Source: a virus
DNA: 22,228 bases
Virus record (IMG/VR): IMGVR_UViG_3300050019_000275
Coordinates: 1-22,228 of that record
Direction: 5' to 3' (one strand)
The translations under genes were made by a program, and so were the position numbers. Positions 15,160-22,228 of this stretch are shown in pieces; the first letter of the stretch is position 1; the number at the start of each line of letters is the position of its first letter. A model generated the notes under the pieces. The model was not told the DNA's origin. It made no database searches and worked only from the letters and a program-made list of their open reading frames with translations.

Positions 15160-15191
15160 AGAAAGCCCGGAGGCGGCCGGAAACGATGCGA

Positions 15192-15222
15192 GCCCCGCGA
15201 GATCGCCAACAACTCGCGGGGC
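15192..15222 (+). promoter_or_regulatory. Strong hairpin in the leader of the capsid gene
   Basis: GCCCCGCGAG (15192-15201) and CTCGCGGGGC (15213-15222) form a perfect 10-bp GC-rich stem with an 11-base loop, ending 17 bases before the chosen start of the protease-scaffold-capsid gene. It argues that the earlier ATG at 15186 is not the start, because that frame would run through the hairpin. It may stabilise a processed capsid mRNA or attenuate upstream transcription. Confidence 0.55.
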
Positions 15223-15239
15223 GAAAGAAGGATACAGCG

Positions 15240-18116
15240 ATGAGCAATTTGAAGGCGGTAAAAATCTTACTGGCCCACATTGGAGATCCCGCCTGGGGGC
15301 GCTACCTACTGCCCGACGGCTTTCGCACCATGTTGGCGGCGACCAAAACCGATGGCGGCAAGGAATTGTCGGCCAGCGACTATGCCTATGTTGGCGACCC
15401 TGAGAAGCCTAGCACCTGGAAGCTGCGCATTGACGATGAGGCGCATGTCGAGGATGCGCTGGCCCGATTCAACCAAACCGACTTGCCCTCGGGCGCCAAA
15501 ACCAAGGTGATTCGCAAGCTGATGGCGATGTGCAGGAAGTATGGCATCGACGCCACTGGCTTCAAGAAGGAATACGCGCCCAAGAAAACCTCCCAGGCAA
15601 TGGGTTTCACGAGTCAGCAGTCGCTGGAGGATATTCGCGACGAGATTAACGATGCGCTGGCGGAGAAATTTGGGAAGGCGAGTACCTACCCGGGGCCGAA
15701 GTACTGGTTGGTTGAGACCTTCCCGACGTACGTGATCGTCAATGGCAATGATGACCCGGACGACATGTATCAGATCCCGTACAGTGTCGGGGAAGATGGC
15801 CTCAGCTTCGGCGATCCGCAGGCAGTCGATGTTGCCTACATCCCAGTCGAATCGACCGGCGGCTTCTCGGCCATGGCGGCCGACGGTGGAGACGATTGGG
15901 TGTACCCCGTGGTGATGATGAAGGCCGGGTTCGCTAACGGCTCGGTGGAACATGCCGGCAAGAAGCTGCGGCAGTACTTCGACGAGAACATCATCCAGCA
16001 AGTGGCGCTGGCCGCCAATGGCGGCAAGTTCGGACGGCGGCATCCGCGGGCTGGAGAGAACGAAAATGCCATGCCGGAGCGCATTGCCGGCTGGCTCGAC
16101 AACGGGCGCGTCATCGATTCGGGCGATGGCGCGATGGCCGTCGCCGACGTCCACTTACTGAAGAGCGAGACGCACCTTCAATCCACGCTATTGGCCGCTC
16201 GTCAGGCGAACAAGCTTGACCTGTTTGGCGTTTCGGTGTTGGCCTACTTCGGCTACACCCCCGCCGTCATTGCGGGCGAACCGGTACTGAAGGCCACCAA
16301 GCTGGCGAAGTTCAGCTCGCTCGACTGGTGCGCTGAGCCTGCTGCCGGTGGCCGCTTTCTCGAATCTATCCGCACCGCTGCTGCGCGTGAGCTTCCTGCC
16401 GAGGTTTCCGAGATGCAGCGGGAAGCAGTTAAACCGCCCGTCAATGATGGGCATAACCACGGCGGCGCCGGCGACGGAGCTGACCAGAACGCAGGAGGCA
16501 ATATGAAATTCAAGGAGAAAATCCTTACGCTTCTCGCGGCGCTGCGGAAGAAGGATGCCGGCCGCGCCACGACTCTCGAAACTGAATTCACCGCGCTGGC
16601 TGAAGACAAACACGGCGAGTTCCTAACCAAACTGGCGGAAGAAGTGATCATGGCCCTGCCCGCGCCGGCGGCCGTCGTCACCGACGAAAACAACCCGGTG
16701 GTCCAGGCCCGCACCGCGTTGGCGGAAGCGAAGAAGATCCAAGCGCAGACGCTGATTCAGACCAAGCTGGCCGAATCGAAACTGATCGGCCCGGCGCTGG
16801 AGTACCTGAAGACGTCGTTCGCGACTCGCCTCAGTGACGGTCTGACCGTGACCGAGGATTGGCTGAAGACGGAGATCGAACGCGCCCGCAGCACGTTCGC
16901 TGCCTTCTCGAATGTTGGCCGGGTGCGCGGCGGCGGCGTCGTTGTCAGCCTGGACTCGGTCGACAAAGTCCAACTGGCCGTCGATGGTCTGTTCGGCCTG
17001 ACCAACGATAAAGGAGTGGTGCCGTTCCGTGGAATTCGCGCCGCGTACATCCACTGTACCGGCGATGACGCGCTGCGCTTTGACCAGGGCAGCTTCTTCC
17101 GCTCGGCGCAGGCCGACAGCGGCATCACGATGGGCGACTTCCCCAACCTGCTGCTGAACTCGATGACCAAGCGGCTGCTGGCTGACTATGCCGAAGTTGG
17201 CATGGGCGGCCTCGAAAACCTGATCACCACCGGCAGCCCGATCCCCGATTACAAGACGCAGGACCGGGTGCGCGAAGGCTACCTGGGCGACTTGGATACG
17301 GTGGCTGAGAGTGCGCCGTACACGGAGATCGACAAACCCACCGACGAGCGGGTGAGCTATGCGGTCGCCAAGCGCGGCAACCTGCTCACCATCTCGGAGG
17401 AAACCATCCGCACCGACGATCTGGGCGCGGTGGCGCGCTTCCCTGGGCGTATTGCGCGCGCCGCGCGGCGCACGCTGAAACAATACGTGACCAACTTCTT
17501 CGCCAACAACCCGAACTACGGCGTGGATACGGTGTCCTGGTTCAACGAGGCGCACAACAACCTGGGCTCGGTTGCCCTGGGGATCGACGAATTGATCGCG
17601 CGCGAGATCGCGTTGATGCGCCAAACCGAGAAGGACAGCGGAAAGCCGTTGGGCTTCCCCCTGACCTGGCTGATGGTGCCCCCGGAACTGAAGGCGGTGG
17701 CCTTTCAGATCAACAAGGCGGAGTTCTACAACCCGAGCCCCGACGAATACCTCCGCGTGCCCAACCCGTTCTACCAGACGTTTGGCGCGAACAACGAGCG
17801 CATCGTCATCAACGAACTGTTGCTCGATGAGAACGACTGGTACTGGGGAACCAACCGCGACAACGCGCCGTTCCTCGAGATCGGGTACCTGGACGGCTAC
17901 CAGCAGCCGCAAATCCTGCTGGCCAGCTTGCCCACGCAGGGCACGCTCTTCACCAACGACAACATCCAATACAAGGTGAAGTTCGTGTTCGGCGGAACCA
18001 TGATCGACTACCGCAGCGTCGGCAAGAACGTCGTCAGCGGCGGCACGCCGAGCAGCAGCAGCAGCGGTGGATCTTCCAGCAGCAGCGGTGGATCTTCCAG
18101 CAGCTCGAGCCACTAG
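15240..18116 (+). CDS. Prohead protease-scaffold-major capsid fusion (Mu gpI/Z/T-like)
   Basis: 958 aa from the ATG with AAGGA eight bases upstream. Residues about 40-105 resemble a small phage domain (ADYAYVGDPEKPSTWKLRID-like, DEAHVEDALARFNQ) found before Mu-type proteases. Residues about 220-375 look like a prohead protease, with a candidate His at 268 (GRRHPRAGENENAMPERIAG) and Ser at 332 (DLFGVSVLAYFG). Residues 422-540 are helical and charged, scaffold-like (MKFKEKILTLLAALRKKDAG). About 560-930 is the gpT-type capsid (GITMGDFPNLLLNSMTKRLL, then VSYAVAKRGNLLTISEETI). In Mu these are separate or nested genes. Here a single frame has an in-frame internal start with its own Shine-Dalgarno at 16493. 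Residues 938-958 are a Ser/Gly tail. The catalytic assignment is tentative. Confidence 0.8.
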   Translation: MSNLKAVKILLAHIGDPAWGRYLLPDGFRTMLAATKTDGGKELSASDYAYVGDPEKPSTWKLRIDDEAHVEDALARFNQTDLPSGAKTKVIRKLMAMCRKYGIDATGFKKEYAPKKTSQAMGFTSQQSLEDIRDEINDALAEKFGKASTYPGPKYWLVETFPTYVIVNGNDDPDDMYQIPYSVGEDGLSFGDPQAVDVAYIPVESTGGFSAMAADGGDDWVYPVVMMKAGFANGSVEHAGKKLRQYFDENIIQQVALAANGGKFGRRHPRAGENENAMPERIAGWLDNGRVIDSGDGAMAVADVHLLKSETHLQSTLLAARQANKLDLFGVSVLAYFGYTPAVIAGEPVLKATKLAKFSSLDWCAEPAAGGRFLESIRTAAARELPAEVSEMQREAVKPPVNDGHNHGGAGDGADQNAGGNMKFKEKILTLLAALRKKDAGRATTLETEFTALAEDKHGEFLTKLAEEVIMALPAPAAVVTDENNPVVQARTALAEAKKIQAQTLIQTKLAESKLIGPALEYLKTSFATRLSDGLTVTEDWLKTEIERARSTFAAFSNVGRVRGGGVVVSLDSVDKVQLAVDGLFGLTNDKGVVPFRGIRAAYIHCTGDDALRFDQGSFFRSAQADSGITMGDFPNLLLNSMTKRLLADYAEVGMGGLENLITTGSPIPDYKTQDRVREGYLGDLDTVAESAPYTEIDKPTDERVSYAVAKRGNLLTISEETIRTDDLGAVARFPGRIARAARRTLKQYVTNFFANNPNYGVDTVSWFNEAHNNLGSVALGIDELIAREIALMRQTEKDSGKPLGFPLTWLMVPPELKAVAFQINKAEFYNPSPDEYLRVPNPFYQTFGANNERIVINELLLDENDWYWGTNRDNAPFLEIGYLDGYQQPQILLASLPTQGTLFTNDNIQYKVKFVFGGTMIDYRSVGKNVVSGGTPSSSSSGGSSSSSGGSSSSSSH
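16493..16505 (+). promoter_or_regulatory. Internal ribosome-binding site and in-frame start for scaffold-capsid
   Basis: AGGAGG (16493-16498) is four bases from an in-frame ATG at 16503 (residue 422 of the fusion), the start of the helical scaffold region. Translation from here gives about 537 aa of scaffold plus capsid without the protease. This recalls the nested protease/scaffold genes of Mu and lambda. Confidence 0.7.
18057..18098 (+). repeat. Two perfect 21-bp tandem units coding the Ser/Gly capsid tail
   Basis: Unit AGCAGCAGCGGTGGATCTTC (plus one C) occurs at 18057-18077 and again at 18078-18098, in frame and translated as Ser-Ser-Ser-Gly-Gly-Ser-Ser. It encodes part of the C-terminal S5-GG-S5-GG-S6-H tail of the capsid fusion. 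Confidence 0.8.
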
Positions 18117-18130
18117 CGCTCGGGCTTGTA

Positions 18131-18180
18131 CCTGGCTGCGGAGTTCGCCATCGCTCCGCAGCCAGGCATCTTTCAATCTT
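18131..18180 (+). terminator. Hairpin terminator after the capsid gene
   Basis: CCTGGCTGCGGAG (18131-18143) and CTCCGCAGCCAGG (18154-18166) form a perfect 13-bp stem with a 10-base loop, followed by CATCTTTCAATCTTT. Probably a partial terminator or an mRNA 3'-end stabiliser that favours capsid over downstream genes. Confidence 0.75.
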
Positions 18181-18192
18181 TAAGGAGTGCAA

Positions 18193-18927
18193 GTGGCCGC
18201 CGATCCGAAAACCCGATTTGCAGGACGCATTGGCACACTGATCCTCGATGCTGCCGGCAAGATCGATCCCTCAGGGATGGACGCCGCCATCGACGAGGCC
18301 ATCAACATCCGTTTCTCCAGCGACCGTCCGCGGCTGCTGGTGTCTGACATCCAGGGCAATGCCAGCAACGATCTGCCGCTTCCCACCGGGCCCAATGGCG
18401 AGACCTGGGAAGACGGCTTCTCCAATGTCGAATCGATTGAATTCCCGATCGGCAATGTACCCGAATCGATGGTCGACAACAGCGACTACAAGATGTATCG
18501 CGCCCCCGCGACCCACGACAATCCGCTGGGCATCTACCTGCGCATGCTGGGTACCGTGCCCCAGGCGAGCGACGAGCTGCGCGTGAGCTGGACCATCCGC
18601 CACACGCCTGCCACTGTGCCCGCCGGCGACTTTGAAGCGGTGTGCTGCTACGCAGCCGCGCTGTGTTTTGGTTCAATGGCGGCCAGCTACATCCAGAGCG
18701 TGGATGCGGCCATTCCCGGCGACACCGTGAACTACCGCACCAAAGCGCAGGAATGCCTGACGGTGGCCAAAGATTTTCGCACGCGCTACTTCAACCACAT
18801 CGGAGCGGCCGATGCTGGCGCTGCTGGCGGATCGCCGGCGCAGCCTCCGGCGCTGTCGATTGGTAAGTTCCGCGAAGAACTGCAGCCGGGCATGGACCGG
18901 CTGCTGCACGGCAAGTACTCGAGGTGA
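18193..18927 (+). CDS. Head-tail connector/neck protein (probable)
   Basis: 244 aa. The GTG at 18193 is chosen because AAGGAG lies five bases upstream; a GTG six bases earlier overlaps that Shine-Dalgarno sequence. It follows the capsid directly. The N-terminal third is GRIGTLILDAAGKIDPSGMD, then beta-rich text (LRVSWTIRHTPATVPAGDFE at about 130-150) and helices with an Ala/Cys-rich stretch (EAVCCYAAALCFGSMAASY). The final region has NYRTKAQECLTVAKDFRTRY, then a Pro/Ala linker and a tail helix. This suits an adaptor that joins portal and tail. The family is not recognised with certainty. Confidence 0.5.
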   Translation: MAADPKTRFAGRIGTLILDAAGKIDPSGMDAAIDEAINIRFSSDRPRLLVSDIQGNASNDLPLPTGPNGETWEDGFSNVESIEFPIGNVPESMVDNSDYKMYRAPATHDNPLGIYLRMLGTVPQASDELRVSWTIRHTPATVPAGDFEAVCCYAAALCFGSMAASYIQSVDAAIPGDTVNYRTKAQECLTVAKDFRTRYFNHIGAADAGAAGGSPAQPPALSIGKFREELQPGMDRLLHGKYSR

Positions 18928-18933
18928 AGTGAA

Positions 18934-19206
18934 ATGGGGGGAAGTGTTCAGCGCTTTGGAGCCATCCGCAAGATTCGTTCCCGCGAGTGGTTTCTCGCAA
19001 ACCGTGAACGCGTGATCGAAAGCGCGAAGAGACTCTGCCGACGGTCCGCTACTGAGTTAGACGGCGGGGAACTGTTGGACGAGCACATTGCAATTGAAGA
19101 ACTATCGGCGGATGACCCGATTCGGATGCAAAAAGAGTTTATGTATGACGAGGTGCTCCTGAAAATCACAGCGAGGGGAGTTCGTCCACCGGGGATAGCT
19201 GCATAG
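18934..19206 (+). CDS. 90-aa hypothetical protein between neck genes
   Basis: ATG six bases after the preceding stop with GAGGTGAAG upstream. It is a charged helical protein (RKIRSREWFLANRERVIESA, EHIAIEELSADDPIRMQKEF). Base composition is visibly lower in GC than neighbouring late genes. No signal peptide or membrane segment. The size and place between two neck genes make it a possible structural or moron gene. No function assigned. Confidence 0.55.
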   Translation: MGGSVQRFGAIRKIRSREWFLANRERVIESAKRLCRRSATELDGGELLDEHIAIEELSADDPIRMQKEFMYDEVLLKITARGVRPPGIAA

Positions 19207-19208
19207 CC

Positions 19209-19733
19209 ATGGAAACCATCATCAGCGTCACCCACAATCCGGACATGATGCCCGGCGTACAGCAGGCGATCGAGCGCGGCGTGTTGCTGGGGGTGGAGAA
19301 GCTGGCGGTGGTTGGGCTAACCAAAGTGCAGGCCAAGACTCCGGTCGCCTACGGCATCCTGGTCGGAGCCGAAGAGACTACGACGAGCAATTTTGGGGCA
19401 TCGCTGCCGGGCATGGGCGGCATCGGCATCAAGGCGACGATCTTTGCTGGGCCTCCGGCTGATGTTTACGCGGCGCCGGTGGAGACGGGGGCCGTGCCTC
19501 ACTTCCCGCCGCCGCAAGCGCTGTTGCTGTGGGTAATGAAACGCTTCCAACCGGAGAACGATAAAGAGGCAATCTCGATCGCGTGGGCAGTGGCTAAGAC
19601 GATTGCCAAGCGCGGCACCAGCGGCGCGCACATGTTTGAGCAAGGCTACGAGGAAGTACTGGCGCAAGCCGGTGCCATCGTCGAGTCCGAGATTGCTCGC
19701 GAGCTCGAAGCCGTTAATCGAGGTGCGCTGTGA
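19209..19733 (+). CDS. Tail completion/neck protein (HK97 gp10-like)
   Basis: 174 aa. The core reads VQQAIERGVLLGVEKLAVVG, PVAYGILVGAEE, then ETGAVPHFPPPQALLLWV and AWAVAKTIAKRGTSGAHMFEQ. The ETG-x-PHFPP...LLLWV and IAKRGT-x-MF pattern is the signature of phage HK97 gp10-like and virion morphogenesis proteins, which bridge the connector and the tail. The C-terminal helix (GAIVESEIARELEAVNRG) matches the family. The gene begins two bases after the previous stop and ends in a GTGA overlap with the tail-terminator gene, so they form a tight neck cluster. Confidence 0.7.
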   Translation: METIISVTHNPDMMPGVQQAIERGVLLGVEKLAVVGLTKVQAKTPVAYGILVGAEETTTSNFGASLPGMGGIGIKATIFAGPPADVYAAPVETGAVPHFPPPQALLLWVMKRFQPENDKEAISIAWAVAKTIAKRGTSGAHMFEQGYEEVLAQAGAIVESEIARELEAVNRGAL

Positions 19734-20215
19734 GCCGGGTGGCAGACATCAAGGCACGCTGTGTTGAGTTACTGCAGCCCATTGTCGCCCCCGGCAAGGT
19801 CTACGCCTATTCGCCCTACGGCAACACCGAGGCCGCGCTGAAAGCGGTGATGCTGGACTCCACCGGCAAGATCCACCTGTGGGCGGTGATTCGCGAATCC
19901 ACCCCGTCGGAGGACAGGAGCATCCCAGCGGTTGAGGACCACCACAAGCTGGTGTTTCGCGCCTGGGCTGGGCTGGTGGGCGACGGCAGCGAATCGGAAG
20001 CGGCGTTCACAGAAGAGATCGAAGCGGTGCGCGACGCGTTTCGCAGTAATCGCAGCCTGAAGAAGCTGGATGGCACCGATCCAAAAGTTTTCTTTTGCAA
20101 GCCCATGCAGGTGCGGACGCAGATGACGGGCACGCTGGTGGGATACCTGGTGCATTACGCCGAGGTGACTATGGAGGCGGAGGACTACCCCATCGACTTC
20201 GACAACACCCCATGA
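19730..20215 (+). CDS. Tail terminator-like protein
   Basis: 161 aa from a GTG in a GTGA overlap. Alternating helix and strand text (VADIKARCVELLQPIVAPGK, then LVFRAWAGLVGDGSESEAAF and IEAVRDAFRSNRSLK, ending LVGYLVHYAEVTMEAED) is typical of the alpha/beta fold of lambda gpU/SPP1 gp17-type terminators, which cap the tail tube. The position after the gp10-like protein and before the tail tube supports this. The sequence itself is not diagnostic, and the name rests mainly on gene order and size. Confidence 0.55.
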   Translation: MSRVADIKARCVELLQPIVAPGKVYAYSPYGNTEAALKAVMLDSTGKIHLWAVIRESTPSEDRSIPAVEDHHKLVFRAWAGLVGDGSESEAAFTEEIEAVRDAFRSNRSLKKLDGTDPKVFFCKPMQVRTQMTGTLVGYLVHYAEVTMEAEDYPIDFDNTP

Positions 20216-20391
20216 CGGTGGTAGCCAGGGGCGAACCTCGGCCCGAGCCGACACCGCAGATGCGTGAGTGCGTGCAGCGCTTTGCCGCCTTGCGCAAACT
20301 GCCGCACGTTTGCCCCAACCTTTGCTGTTGCCGCTGCTCGCTGGAGCGGCTGGGACCACACCTGTTGGCGCTGTGGATGAGCGAACAATGA
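20212..20391 (+). CDS. 59-aa Cys-rich peptide
   Basis: ATG overlaps the stop of the tail-terminator gene (ATGA). The peptide has a proline-rich, polar N-terminus (RGEPRPEPTPQMRECVQRFA) and a cluster of five cysteines in CPNLCCCRCSLE at residues 34-45, plus C20. It could bind zinc or be oxidised. Its coupling to tail genes is clear, its role is not. A longer in-frame start exists upstream but would overlap the terminator gene by 120 bases, so the ATGA start is preferred. Confidence 0.5.
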   Translation: MTVVARGEPRPEPTPQMRECVQRFAALRKLPHVCPNLCCCRCSLERLGPHLLALWMSEQ

Positions 20392-20406
20392 GGGAATTCC
20401 CAGCAG

Positions 20407-20424
20407 CTAGCCCCGCATCCGTAA
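20407..20424 (+). repeat. 18-bp dispersed repeat, second copy
   Basis: Identical over 18 bases (CTAGCCCCGCATCCGTAA) to 8166-8183. Both copies are intergenic and precede a gene in the same direction. This one lies 43 bases before the ATG of the 106-aa gene. Related to the heptamer repeats elsewhere in the window. Confidence 0.6.
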
Positions 20425-20467
20425 AGTGCGCCGACAATCGGCTGTTGGCGGATGGAAACTGACTTTT

Positions 20468-20788
20468 ATGGCAGGCGAAGACTTCGTTCACGTTGAGCTG
20501 ACCGCCGCTGGAGCCAAGATGGCCGGGGCAGGCAAACAGCTGCGCGTCACCGTCGGCCGCAGCAGCTTCCTGTTCAAGGTTGGCGAGTCGCAGCGCGTGA
20601 CCCGCGCCTACGAGTGGACCGCGCTGCTGAAGCAGAAGCACTATCAGGGCCAGCCCGTATTCCAAATTTCCACGGCACAAACGATGCAGTCGCCGGCAAC
20701 GACGGGGCCTCACGTTCTTACGGGCCCCGGCGTCCGGGCCTTTGGTTCGCAGCACCACCCCGCGATCGCGGTGCACAAGGAGACCTAA
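20468..20788 (+). CDS. 106-aa hypothetical protein before the tail tube
   Basis: The ATG at 20468 is favoured over one 42 bases upstream because it opens directly into a folded beta-rich region (EDFVHVELTAAGAKMAGAGK, then RVTVGRSSFLFKVGESQRVT). The second half (EWTALLKQKHYQGQPVFQIS) is mixed, and the C-terminus contains Gly, Pro and His residues. Stop TAA lies inside the tail-tube Shine-Dalgarno context (AAGGAGACCTAA), so expression is linked. Probably a small tail- or neck-associated structural protein; unrecognised. Confidence 0.5.
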   Translation: MAGEDFVHVELTAAGAKMAGAGKQLRVTVGRSSFLFKVGESQRVTRAYEWTALLKQKHYQGQPVFQISTAQTMQSPATTGPHVLTGPGVRAFGSQHHPAIAVHKET

Positions 20789-21889
20789 ATGTCGCTCGAC
20801 TTCAATCCGCAGAAAAAATCGGCACGCAACCTCGTGATCTCGCCCAACATTCAGCTGGCTGCCGGCAACATCTTTGCCGACGCCGCGCTCACTCGTCGCC
20901 AACGGTTCGATGGCGCGGCCGTGATGGAGCAGACCCCCACTCGCGCGGGCGACAAAGACATGAGCGGCAAGGGCACCGAGTTTGCCACCGACTCGCAGCT
21001 GACCAATTGGGATTCGAAGTTCAGCTGCAAGGCCGACCTGGACGATTTCATCGCGGGTTGGGCTTTGGCGCTGGTGATGGGAGCCGAGGACGTGAGCGGC
21101 GCGGATGCACCTTACCTGCACTCCATCACCTTCGACGAAAGCTCTGCGGGCACGCATGCGCCCATGACCAACGTCTACCTGGAAGACACGGAAGACGTGA
21201 AGAGCAAGTACTGCGACATGTCGGCGACCGACGTCACACTTAGCTTGTCGGCGAAAGGCCGTGCGGGGATTGAGATCGCGATGGCAGGCACCGGTCGTTG
21301 GCGAGACGAGGCCATGGCGGCCTTGCCCGCGCTGGCAGAGTACGCCTACCTGATGAACTCCGACACCGTGTTTGAGTTGGGCCCGTTCGGGGGTGCGCTG
21401 GCCAGTATGGTTGGGCGCTTCATGTCGGCGACGCTCAAGATCTCCAGTGGAACGGTGAGCCACGTTGCACCCGGCGGCCAGCAGTTCGGCATCTTCATGC
21501 GGACCGGGCTGAGGAAGTTCTCTTTGCAGGCCACCATCGCCGCCAAAGAGACTGACGACGTCCGCACCTTGCTGGTGAACGACACCATGTGCCAGCTGGC
21601 TATGACCACCACGTCCGGGGTATTGCCTTCGATCCTCGGCATCTCGATCCCCAAGTTCAAGATGAAGACGCACAAAATTGGGGTGGACGGGAGCATGGTG
21701 ATCTGGCAGGTCGAAATCGACGAGACCACCGCGCTGAAGGTTGTGGGCGACGCGCCCGTCGACGCCTTGAGCGTGACGGTGCAGAACTCGGTGCCGGCAT
21801 ACCTGGTCGGGGTCGCTGGAGAGAGTTCGAGCAGCAGCGGCGCCAGCAGCAGCAGTTCGGGCGGCTCCAGTAGTTCATCGAGCGCTTAA
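20789..21889 (+). CDS. Major tail tube protein with a Ser/Gly C-terminal tail
   Basis: 366 aa, ATG one base after the preceding stop with AAGGAG nine bases upstream, a strong signal fitting an abundant protein. The body is beta-rich with the repeated strand pattern of tail tubes (GTEFATDSQLTNWDSKFSCK, DVTLSLSAKGRAGIEIAMAG, KFSLQATIAAKETDDV, MVIWQVEIDETTALKVVG). No sheath features such as long proteolysis-resistant insertions are seen, which supports a non-contractile tail. Residues 346-366 are S5-GA-S5-GG-S6-A, almost the same as the capsid tail, but with different serine codons. The gene is followed by a hairpin and a glycosyltransferase-like gene. Confidence 0.75.
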   Translation: MSLDFNPQKKSARNLVISPNIQLAAGNIFADAALTRRQRFDGAAVMEQTPTRAGDKDMSGKGTEFATDSQLTNWDSKFSCKADLDDFIAGWALALVMGAEDVSGADAPYLHSITFDESSAGTHAPMTNVYLEDTEDVKSKYCDMSATDVTLSLSAKGRAGIEIAMAGTGRWRDEAMAALPALAEYAYLMNSDTVFELGPFGGALASMVGRFMSATLKISSGTVSHVAPGGQQFGIFMRTGLRKFSLQATIAAKETDDVRTLLVNDTMCQLAMTTTSGVLPSILGISIPKFKMKTHKIGVDGSMVIWQVEIDETTALKVVGDAPVDALSVTVQNSVPAYLVGVAGESSSSSGASSSSSGGSSSSSSA

Positions 21890-21962: not shown

Positions 21963-22228
21963 ATGGCAAACAGCGAACTATGGGTCGGTGGCTTCCCCTC
22001 GCGCTACGGGGGAGCCGATACCGAACTCGATCACAACATCGACCTGTGGCGCCGCTTCGGCGTCGATGTGAACCTGGTGCCGATGTGGGGCGCCTCCGAT
22101 GACATGAAGGCAAGCGTGATCGATCGAGGCTGCCGGATCCACGACTACCGCGACGATGTTTTCGCGGACAAGATAGTGGTCAGCTTTTGCAACGGCGTGT
22201 TTCTGGAGAAGCTGCCCGCGATCATGCA
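21963..22228 (+). CDS. Glycosyltransferase-like protein, N-terminal part only
   Basis: 88 codons are visible before the right edge. The N-terminus reads WVGGFPSRYGGADTELDHNI followed by DLWRRFGVDVNLVPMWG and later ADKIVVSFCNGVFLEKLPAI. This follows the N-terminal Rossmann-like half of GT4-type glycosyltransferases: a first strand, a Gly-rich acceptor loop (YGGADTEL), a helix, and a second strand (VDVNLVPMW). The family usually has 350-400 residues, so the donor-binding half lies outside. The gene follows the tail tube by 73 bases in the same direction. Decorating virion proteins is a plausible role because two virion proteins carry Ser-rich tails; the acceptor is inferred. Confidence 0.65.
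   Translation, partial: MANSELWVGGFPSRYGGADTELDHNIDLWRRFGVDVNLVPMWGASDDMKASVIDRGCRIHDYRDDVFADKIVVSFCNGVFLEKLPAIM

Follow-up and report, generated by a model that had tools for sequence, protein, structure and literature searches.

Matching serine/glycine tails on the capsid and tail tube of a Mu-like phage: candidate acceptors for an adjoining glycosyltransferase

In the 22,228-nucleotide stretch of soil phage DNA analyzed here (IMG/VR record IMGVR_UViG_3300050019_000275, referred to as the window), the major capsid protein and the tail tube protein end in nearly the same Ser/Gly tail, and a glycosyltransferase (GT) gene begins directly behind the tube gene. We propose that the tails accept O-linked sugars, so that a single set of enzymes could coat both the head and the tail of the phage, an explanation to which we assign a probability of roughly 0.7. 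Several observations stand behind it: the two proteins share a peptide that is predicted to be disordered and that occurs jointly with the GT gene, and the same kind of tag sits on a non-homologous head protein in a sister phage. In other genomes, too, members of this GT family are associated with poly-Ser proteins.

Results

The capsid and tail tube end in the same peptide

The features of the two tagged genes are as follows:

15186..18116, + strand: prohead protease / major capsid protein fusion, tag-bearing, 976 aa (PF25209, E=4.8e-33; NCBIfam; HK97-type fold)
18051..18113, + strand: C-terminal tail of the capsid, S5-GG-S5-GG-S6-H, from in-frame reading, predicted to be disordered
18057..18098, + strand: exact 21-bp tandem duplication within the capsid tail, AGCAGCAGCGGTGGATCTTCC twice, seen as a self-match peak at offset 21
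20789..21889, + strand: tail tube protein, T5 pb6-like, tag-bearing, 366 aa (PF18906; Foldseek)
21824..21886, + strand: C-terminal tail of the tail tube, S5-GA-S5-GG-S6-A, from in-frame reading, predicted to be disordered

Gene identities were checked against Pfam, PHROGs, and NCBIfam. The capsid ORF matches PF25209 in Pfam and a protease/MCP fusion in NCBIfam, and its AlphaFold2 model (pLDDT 84) has an HK97-type fold by Foldseek, so that both domain match and fold are those of the HK97-type capsids of Mu-like phages. The tube matches PF18906 with 27.8 bits (cut-off 27; E=2e-6), and its model, of moderate confidence (pLDDT 68), resembles the tubes of T5, DT57C, P74-26, and SH-Ab15497 with Foldseek E-values down to 4e-12; here too, domain and fold are both those of a phage tail tube. 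The phage looks Mu-like and temperate, with a transposase.

Each tail lies in frame and closes its long ORF; the capsid reads ...TP-SSSSSGGSSSSSGGSSSSSSH and the tube ...GE-SSSSSGASSSSSGGSSSSSSA. No other ORF in the window has a Ser/Gly tail. Aligned in register, the tails are identical at 19 of 21 residues and at 6 of 21 codons, and six of the 16 serines that they have in common switch between the AGY and TCN sets; our recount thus reproduced the coordinates, residue and codon counts, and serine switching reported by the first-pass annotation. When the tube tail's codons were shuffled among like residues, 5.1 shared codons were expected on average, compared to the 6 observed (P=0.36 for 6 or more), and the nucleotide identity of the two tails is 54%, compared to 52% after shuffling (P=0.46). 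Given that codon and nucleotide sharing are at the level of chance, no DNA homology is left between the tails, and a recent duplication between the capsid and tube genes is rejected. The earlier view of the tails as a peptide tag common to two unrelated proteins, and not as the product of recent DNA copying, is borne out. The capsid tail by itself contains two exact 21-bp copies (18057-18077 and 18078-18098), indicating that it grew by internal duplication.

Both tails are predicted to be disordered: the mean AlphaFold2 pLDDT of the capsid tail is ~50, and that of the tube C-terminus is 35-42. Surface exposure of the tube tail is plausible by analogy, because T5 pb6, which has the same fold, carries at its C-terminus a peripheral Ig-like domain on which tube formation does not depend (PMC5717097). 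The window tube resembles pb6 and other siphophage tubes with Ig-like decoration domains in having this fold together with a C-terminal accessory element, but where those tubes have an Ig domain, it has a disordered Ser/Gly tail.

The tails are absent from most relatives

Single-sequence scans of viral contigs with the window capsid and with the tube found no relatives; alignment-based scans succeeded. No Ser/Gly tail was found among the ~80 homologous capsids recovered this way. The eight closest full-length capsids are 53-60% identical to that of the window, in phages of similar gene order. Capsid relatives stop where the capsid fold ends, at ..GVGKNVVAG, compared to ..VGKNVVSGGTP-S5 in the window. 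Among the tube homologues from the alignment-based scan, only the window and a sister phage (L097/L157) have such a tail; the others end in ..AYLVAA, compared to ..AYLVGVAGE-S5 in the window. The tails are extensions beyond the capsid and tube folds that the family does not need, and their absence from ~80 homologous capsids and from the tube homologues outside the window and sister excludes chance.

The first-pass annotation had suggested checking the tails for conservation in related Mu-type phages; we reject the view that they are a conserved trait, since they are missing in the capsid and tube relatives alike. It had also named, as the result that would speak against a tag, otherwise similar relatives lacking the tail in both proteins. 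Such relatives exist, and yet the tag idea survives them, because the tails sit on head and tail jointly and occur together with the GT. What the tailless relatives show is that the tails are an optional add-on and that assembly does without them. In thirteen more relatives that have the tube, both the tails and the GT4 gene are missing from the stretch covered; compared to the window and sister, this gives P=0.0095 for the co-occurrence of tail and GT (Fisher), in a small sample of related phages.

Directly behind the capsid gene, the window differs from its close relatives:

18117..18186, no strand: short gap where close relatives have a gene of 130-160 aa (tblastn)

In tblastn searches, four of these post-capsid proteins of 130-160 aa had matches in the relatives tested and none in the window or in L115. 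The small gene, of ~130 aa in close relatives (L020 9131-9523, with homologues in L017, L019, L023, L024, L161, L162, L166, L167, and L170) encodes a protein with no Pfam match that is probably an undescribed head decoration protein. That the capsid tail replaced this missing protein in the window is a guess.

Similar tails occur in a sister phage with a different head module

One sister phage, in the Acidobacteriaceae MAG L097 and in a twin virus contig (L151/L157), carries the same combination of tails and GT; that we found only one counts against the glycosylation explanation. Its tube is 69% and its GT 68% identical to those of the window, and the early modules are partly shared, with several proteins 77-88% identical and the transposase 43%. 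The head module is different. The sister capsid protein has no tail; instead, 26 serines and a final His close a cement-like small protein encoded just before the capsid gene. The sister tube closes with 29 serines, likewise followed by a His; counting both phages, three of four tails have His as their last residue. Thus, in each of two phages with unrelated heads, the same kind of tail is borne by the tube and by one head protein, and the GT is present as well. The GT4 gene sits inside the late structural region in both. In the sister it is followed by genes for a sugar-nucleotide epimerase/dehydratase (PF16363, 1e-53) and then a GT2 (PF00535, 1e-14).

Three smaller observations arose from these comparisons. 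The sister tube (L097 8510-9655) has an extra SSSSSS in one of its loops; at this site, the L020 tube has an insertion of ~90 residues. A stretch with a small Cys-rich ORF (window 20245-20394) has 75% DNA identity to L115 10502-10651; in the sister it sits elsewhere, in the head region (L115). Near the left end of the window, positions 85-213 have 91% DNA identity to L116 11643-11771, more than the neighboring transposition genes, which may point to a conserved end or to a regulatory site.

The gene behind the tube encodes part of a GT4 glycosyltransferase

The GT frame begins 73 bp 3' of the tube gene and runs off the 22,228-base virus contig:

21963..22228, + strand: start of a GT4 glycosyltransferase gene, cut off after 88 codons by the contig end, 61-68% identical to full-length GTs

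These full-length proteins are found in the viral contigs L003-L007 and in L097. The 88-residue window fragment falls short of the Pfam GT domain and, on its own, has no convincing match in Pfam, PHROGs, NCBIfam, or the PDB. The full-length GTs of L097 and L003 match both Glycos_transf_1 (PF00534) and Glyco_trans_1_4 (PF13692) above the Pfam cut-offs, and the L005 protein is likewise above the curated Pfam cut-off for a GT4 domain. Full-length relatives keep the EX7E motif, with invariant E254 and E262 (A3), at a position that in the window lies beyond the contig end; this truncation of the window GT counts against the glycosylation explanation. The Pfam match and the motif are shared with the GT4 family (Glycos_transf_1), but the present branch is set apart by having no PHROGs match and no relative among 50,697 INPHARED phage records; in 396 Acidobacteriota genomes, there were no relatives beyond L097's own. 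From these sequence comparisons, the window-type GT would be a separate branch within GT4.

Two points about the family count against glycosylation of a virion protein: the nearest solved structures in a profile search are BshA-like, and the acceptors of GT4 enzymes are more often lipids, polysaccharides, or small molecules.

The GT family recurs beside poly-Ser proteins

Scans and genome searches yielded the 22 loci of this GT family that were counted. In 15 of them, the GT gene has a poly-Ser ORF no more than 5 kb away, often directly adjoining it, compared to 2 of 57 control stretches (Fisher P~3e-9), where the GT loci are partly related and so not fully independent, and the control numbers are modest. 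The controls comprise 19 stretches mostly from the same Planctomycetota genomes and 38 from viral contigs with capsid relatives, with one poly-Ser ORF in each group. When three near-identical viral loci are collapsed, 13 of 20 loci have a poly-Ser ORF (P=4e-8). ORFs were chosen mechanically in this count, with the result that the window's own tube was hidden behind a longer antisense ORF. The remaining seven of the 22 loci, some of which have short flanks, lack a poly-Ser ORF nearby and count against the glycosylation explanation.

The serine-rich neighbors are diverse. L117, L118, and L120 have long SSSG-rich proteins directly upstream of the GT gene, and in L003, L005, and L006, a TP-rich protein and one that contains 25-46 serines in a row are encoded near it. 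The excess over the controls shows that the recurrent partner of the GT family is poly-serine, whichever protein bears it. This partnership of poly-Ser and GT4 is apparently undescribed so far, and it occurs in Planctomycetota as well.

Two loci are described here for their own sake. One Planctomycetota genome encodes a small protein that begins with a hydrophobic stretch at the N-terminus and finishes with S49, and the GT4 gene follows directly downstream (L122 5982-7710); no phage gene was recognized at this locus. In freshwater-type phages, L003 5540-12923 and similar stretches in L005 and L006 contain genes for a PF11397 GlcNAc transferase, HtrL_YibB, a methyltransferase-like protein, and a GT4, adjoining the mucin-like TP-rich protein and the poly-Ser protein. 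This cluster is probably another virion glycosylation cluster.

Discussion

A proposed model for glycosylation of head and tail

The first-pass annotation had listed glycosylation as one of three possible uses of the tails, and the adjoining GT gene, which that annotation had overlooked, and the sister phage now clearly favor it. In our model, both tails would be flexible acceptors for O-glycosylation. The phage-encoded GT4, whose gene lies 3' of the tube, would be catalytically active and add a sugar to the serines of any protein with a poly-Ser or Ser/Gly tail; an epimerase/dehydratase and a GT2, as in the sister phage, would supply and extend the glycan. Given that one head protein and the tail tube are both tagged, one enzyme set would coat the whole particle. 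If the tails are exposed on the virion surface, the benefit could be shielding, stability in soil, or carbohydrate display.

The tails might instead act unmodified, as flexible hydrophilic bristles or adhesive surface peptides, with the GT serving some other purpose. The disorder predicted for both tails by AlphaFold2 fits such peptides, and Ser/Gly composition is typical of flexible linkers. This leaves unexplained, however, why the tails and the GT are present together or absent together in tube-bearing relatives, and why unrelated poly-Ser proteins lie beside the same GT family; we consider it unlikely. It is a still smaller possibility that the GT is a lysogenic-conversion enzyme that alters host surface sugars and lies behind the tube by accident. 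Such GTs are frequent in temperate phages (general knowledge; PMC12619734), the window phage looks Mu-like and temperate, and the epimerase/dehydratase and GT2 of the sister would fit this role too. But in both phages the GT lies inside the late structural region, and its homologues adjoin poly-Ser proteins in very different genomes.

His is the last residue of three of the four tails, a hint of a common source. Together with the 21-bp tandem duplication in the capsid tail, this could mean that the tails are repeat-expansion noise, produced by replication slippage or by a Ser-rich segment spread by recombination, and kept as harmless C-terminal extensions. We regard this as very unlikely in view of the mixed Ser codons, the chance-level codon sharing between the window tails, the absence of such a tail from ~80 capsids, and the tagging of two different proteins in both phages, whose heads differ. 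Slippage alone is rejected by the mixed codons and by the two proteins in each of the two phages. Finally, although kinases commonly target serine, phosphorylation or some other modification in place of glycosylation is hardly credible when the recurrent neighbor is a glycosyltransferase, sugar-metabolism genes follow it in the sister, and no kinase was recognized among the window proteins scanned.

Comparison with known glycosylation systems

The nearest precedent for O-glycosylation of both head and tail comes from mycobacteriophages. For Che8, Corndog, and Myrna, published accounts report that the subunits of capsid and tail tube bear O-linked glycans, added by phage GTs, at their C-termini (PMC12619734, PMC12363180, PMC11600133, PMC11652166); the source study is cited there as Freeman et al, 2023 (Cell Host Microbe 31:1216; PMC12619734). 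The present system likewise includes a phage-encoded GT, its N-terminal part in the window and the full-length protein in the sister. In the mycobacteriophages, glycans are reported at the capsid and tube C-termini, whereas here the tails are candidate acceptors. The enzymes differ as well: three Che8 GTs match the GT2/GT25 Pfam families, in contrast to the GT4 families matched by the present GT, and for the one Che8 GT compared, gp108 against A3, hhalign gave a probability of 0.5% (E=0.12). As far as tested, then, the Che8 GTs are unrelated to this GT4. They are also encoded far from the structural genes, unlike the window GT directly behind the tube. Che8 has no poly-Ser tail, its capsid ending in ..VVVFNKTGS and its tail protein in ..AEQYSDGS, and no poly-Ser end was found among nine ORFs of the Myrna structural region. 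Judged by sequence, the present case would work like mycobacteriophage glycosylation while belonging to it neither by enzyme nor by acceptor.

The streptococcal SRRP pathway may serve as an analogue for Ser-rich acceptors. In this pathway, the Ser-rich protein Fap1 is O-glycosylated stepwise, with the first sugar added by the Gtf1-Gtf2 pair (PMC5207161). As in Fap1-type systems, a Ser-rich candidate acceptor is encoded beside GT genes in the window and in GT-family loci. The SRRP acceptor is a secreted adhesin, whereas here the tagged proteins are virion proteins. No Gtf1/Gtf2 (GtfA/GtfB)-type partner was recognized behind the L151 GT4, in a region inside which both the L151 and the window contigs end. 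The solved-structure matches listed for the GT family include no SRRP glycosyltransferase; BshA-like GTs appear instead.

Implications

The broader proposal is a previously undescribed, portable tagging system, in which a poly-Ser tract, either C-terminal or inserted, is paired with a dedicated GT4 that glycosylates any protein bearing the tract. Such a system would act on non-homologous heads and on tubes in phages of soil Acidobacteria, and on other poly-Ser proteins in Planctomycetota and freshwater phages. We see the chances of this generalization as evenly balanced. If it is true, glycosylation of both head and tail would extend to phages outside the mycobacterial group, and it would rely on a simple peptide tag that can be transferred between proteins and is served by an enzyme of its own. 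A poly-Ser tail together with this GT4 would provide a sequence rule for recognizing sugar-coated virions in metagenomes, and the pair might become a tool to place glycans on chosen proteins. The proposal would also predict a function for the poly-Ser tracts beside GT genes in Planctomycetota, which family searches have left unexplained.
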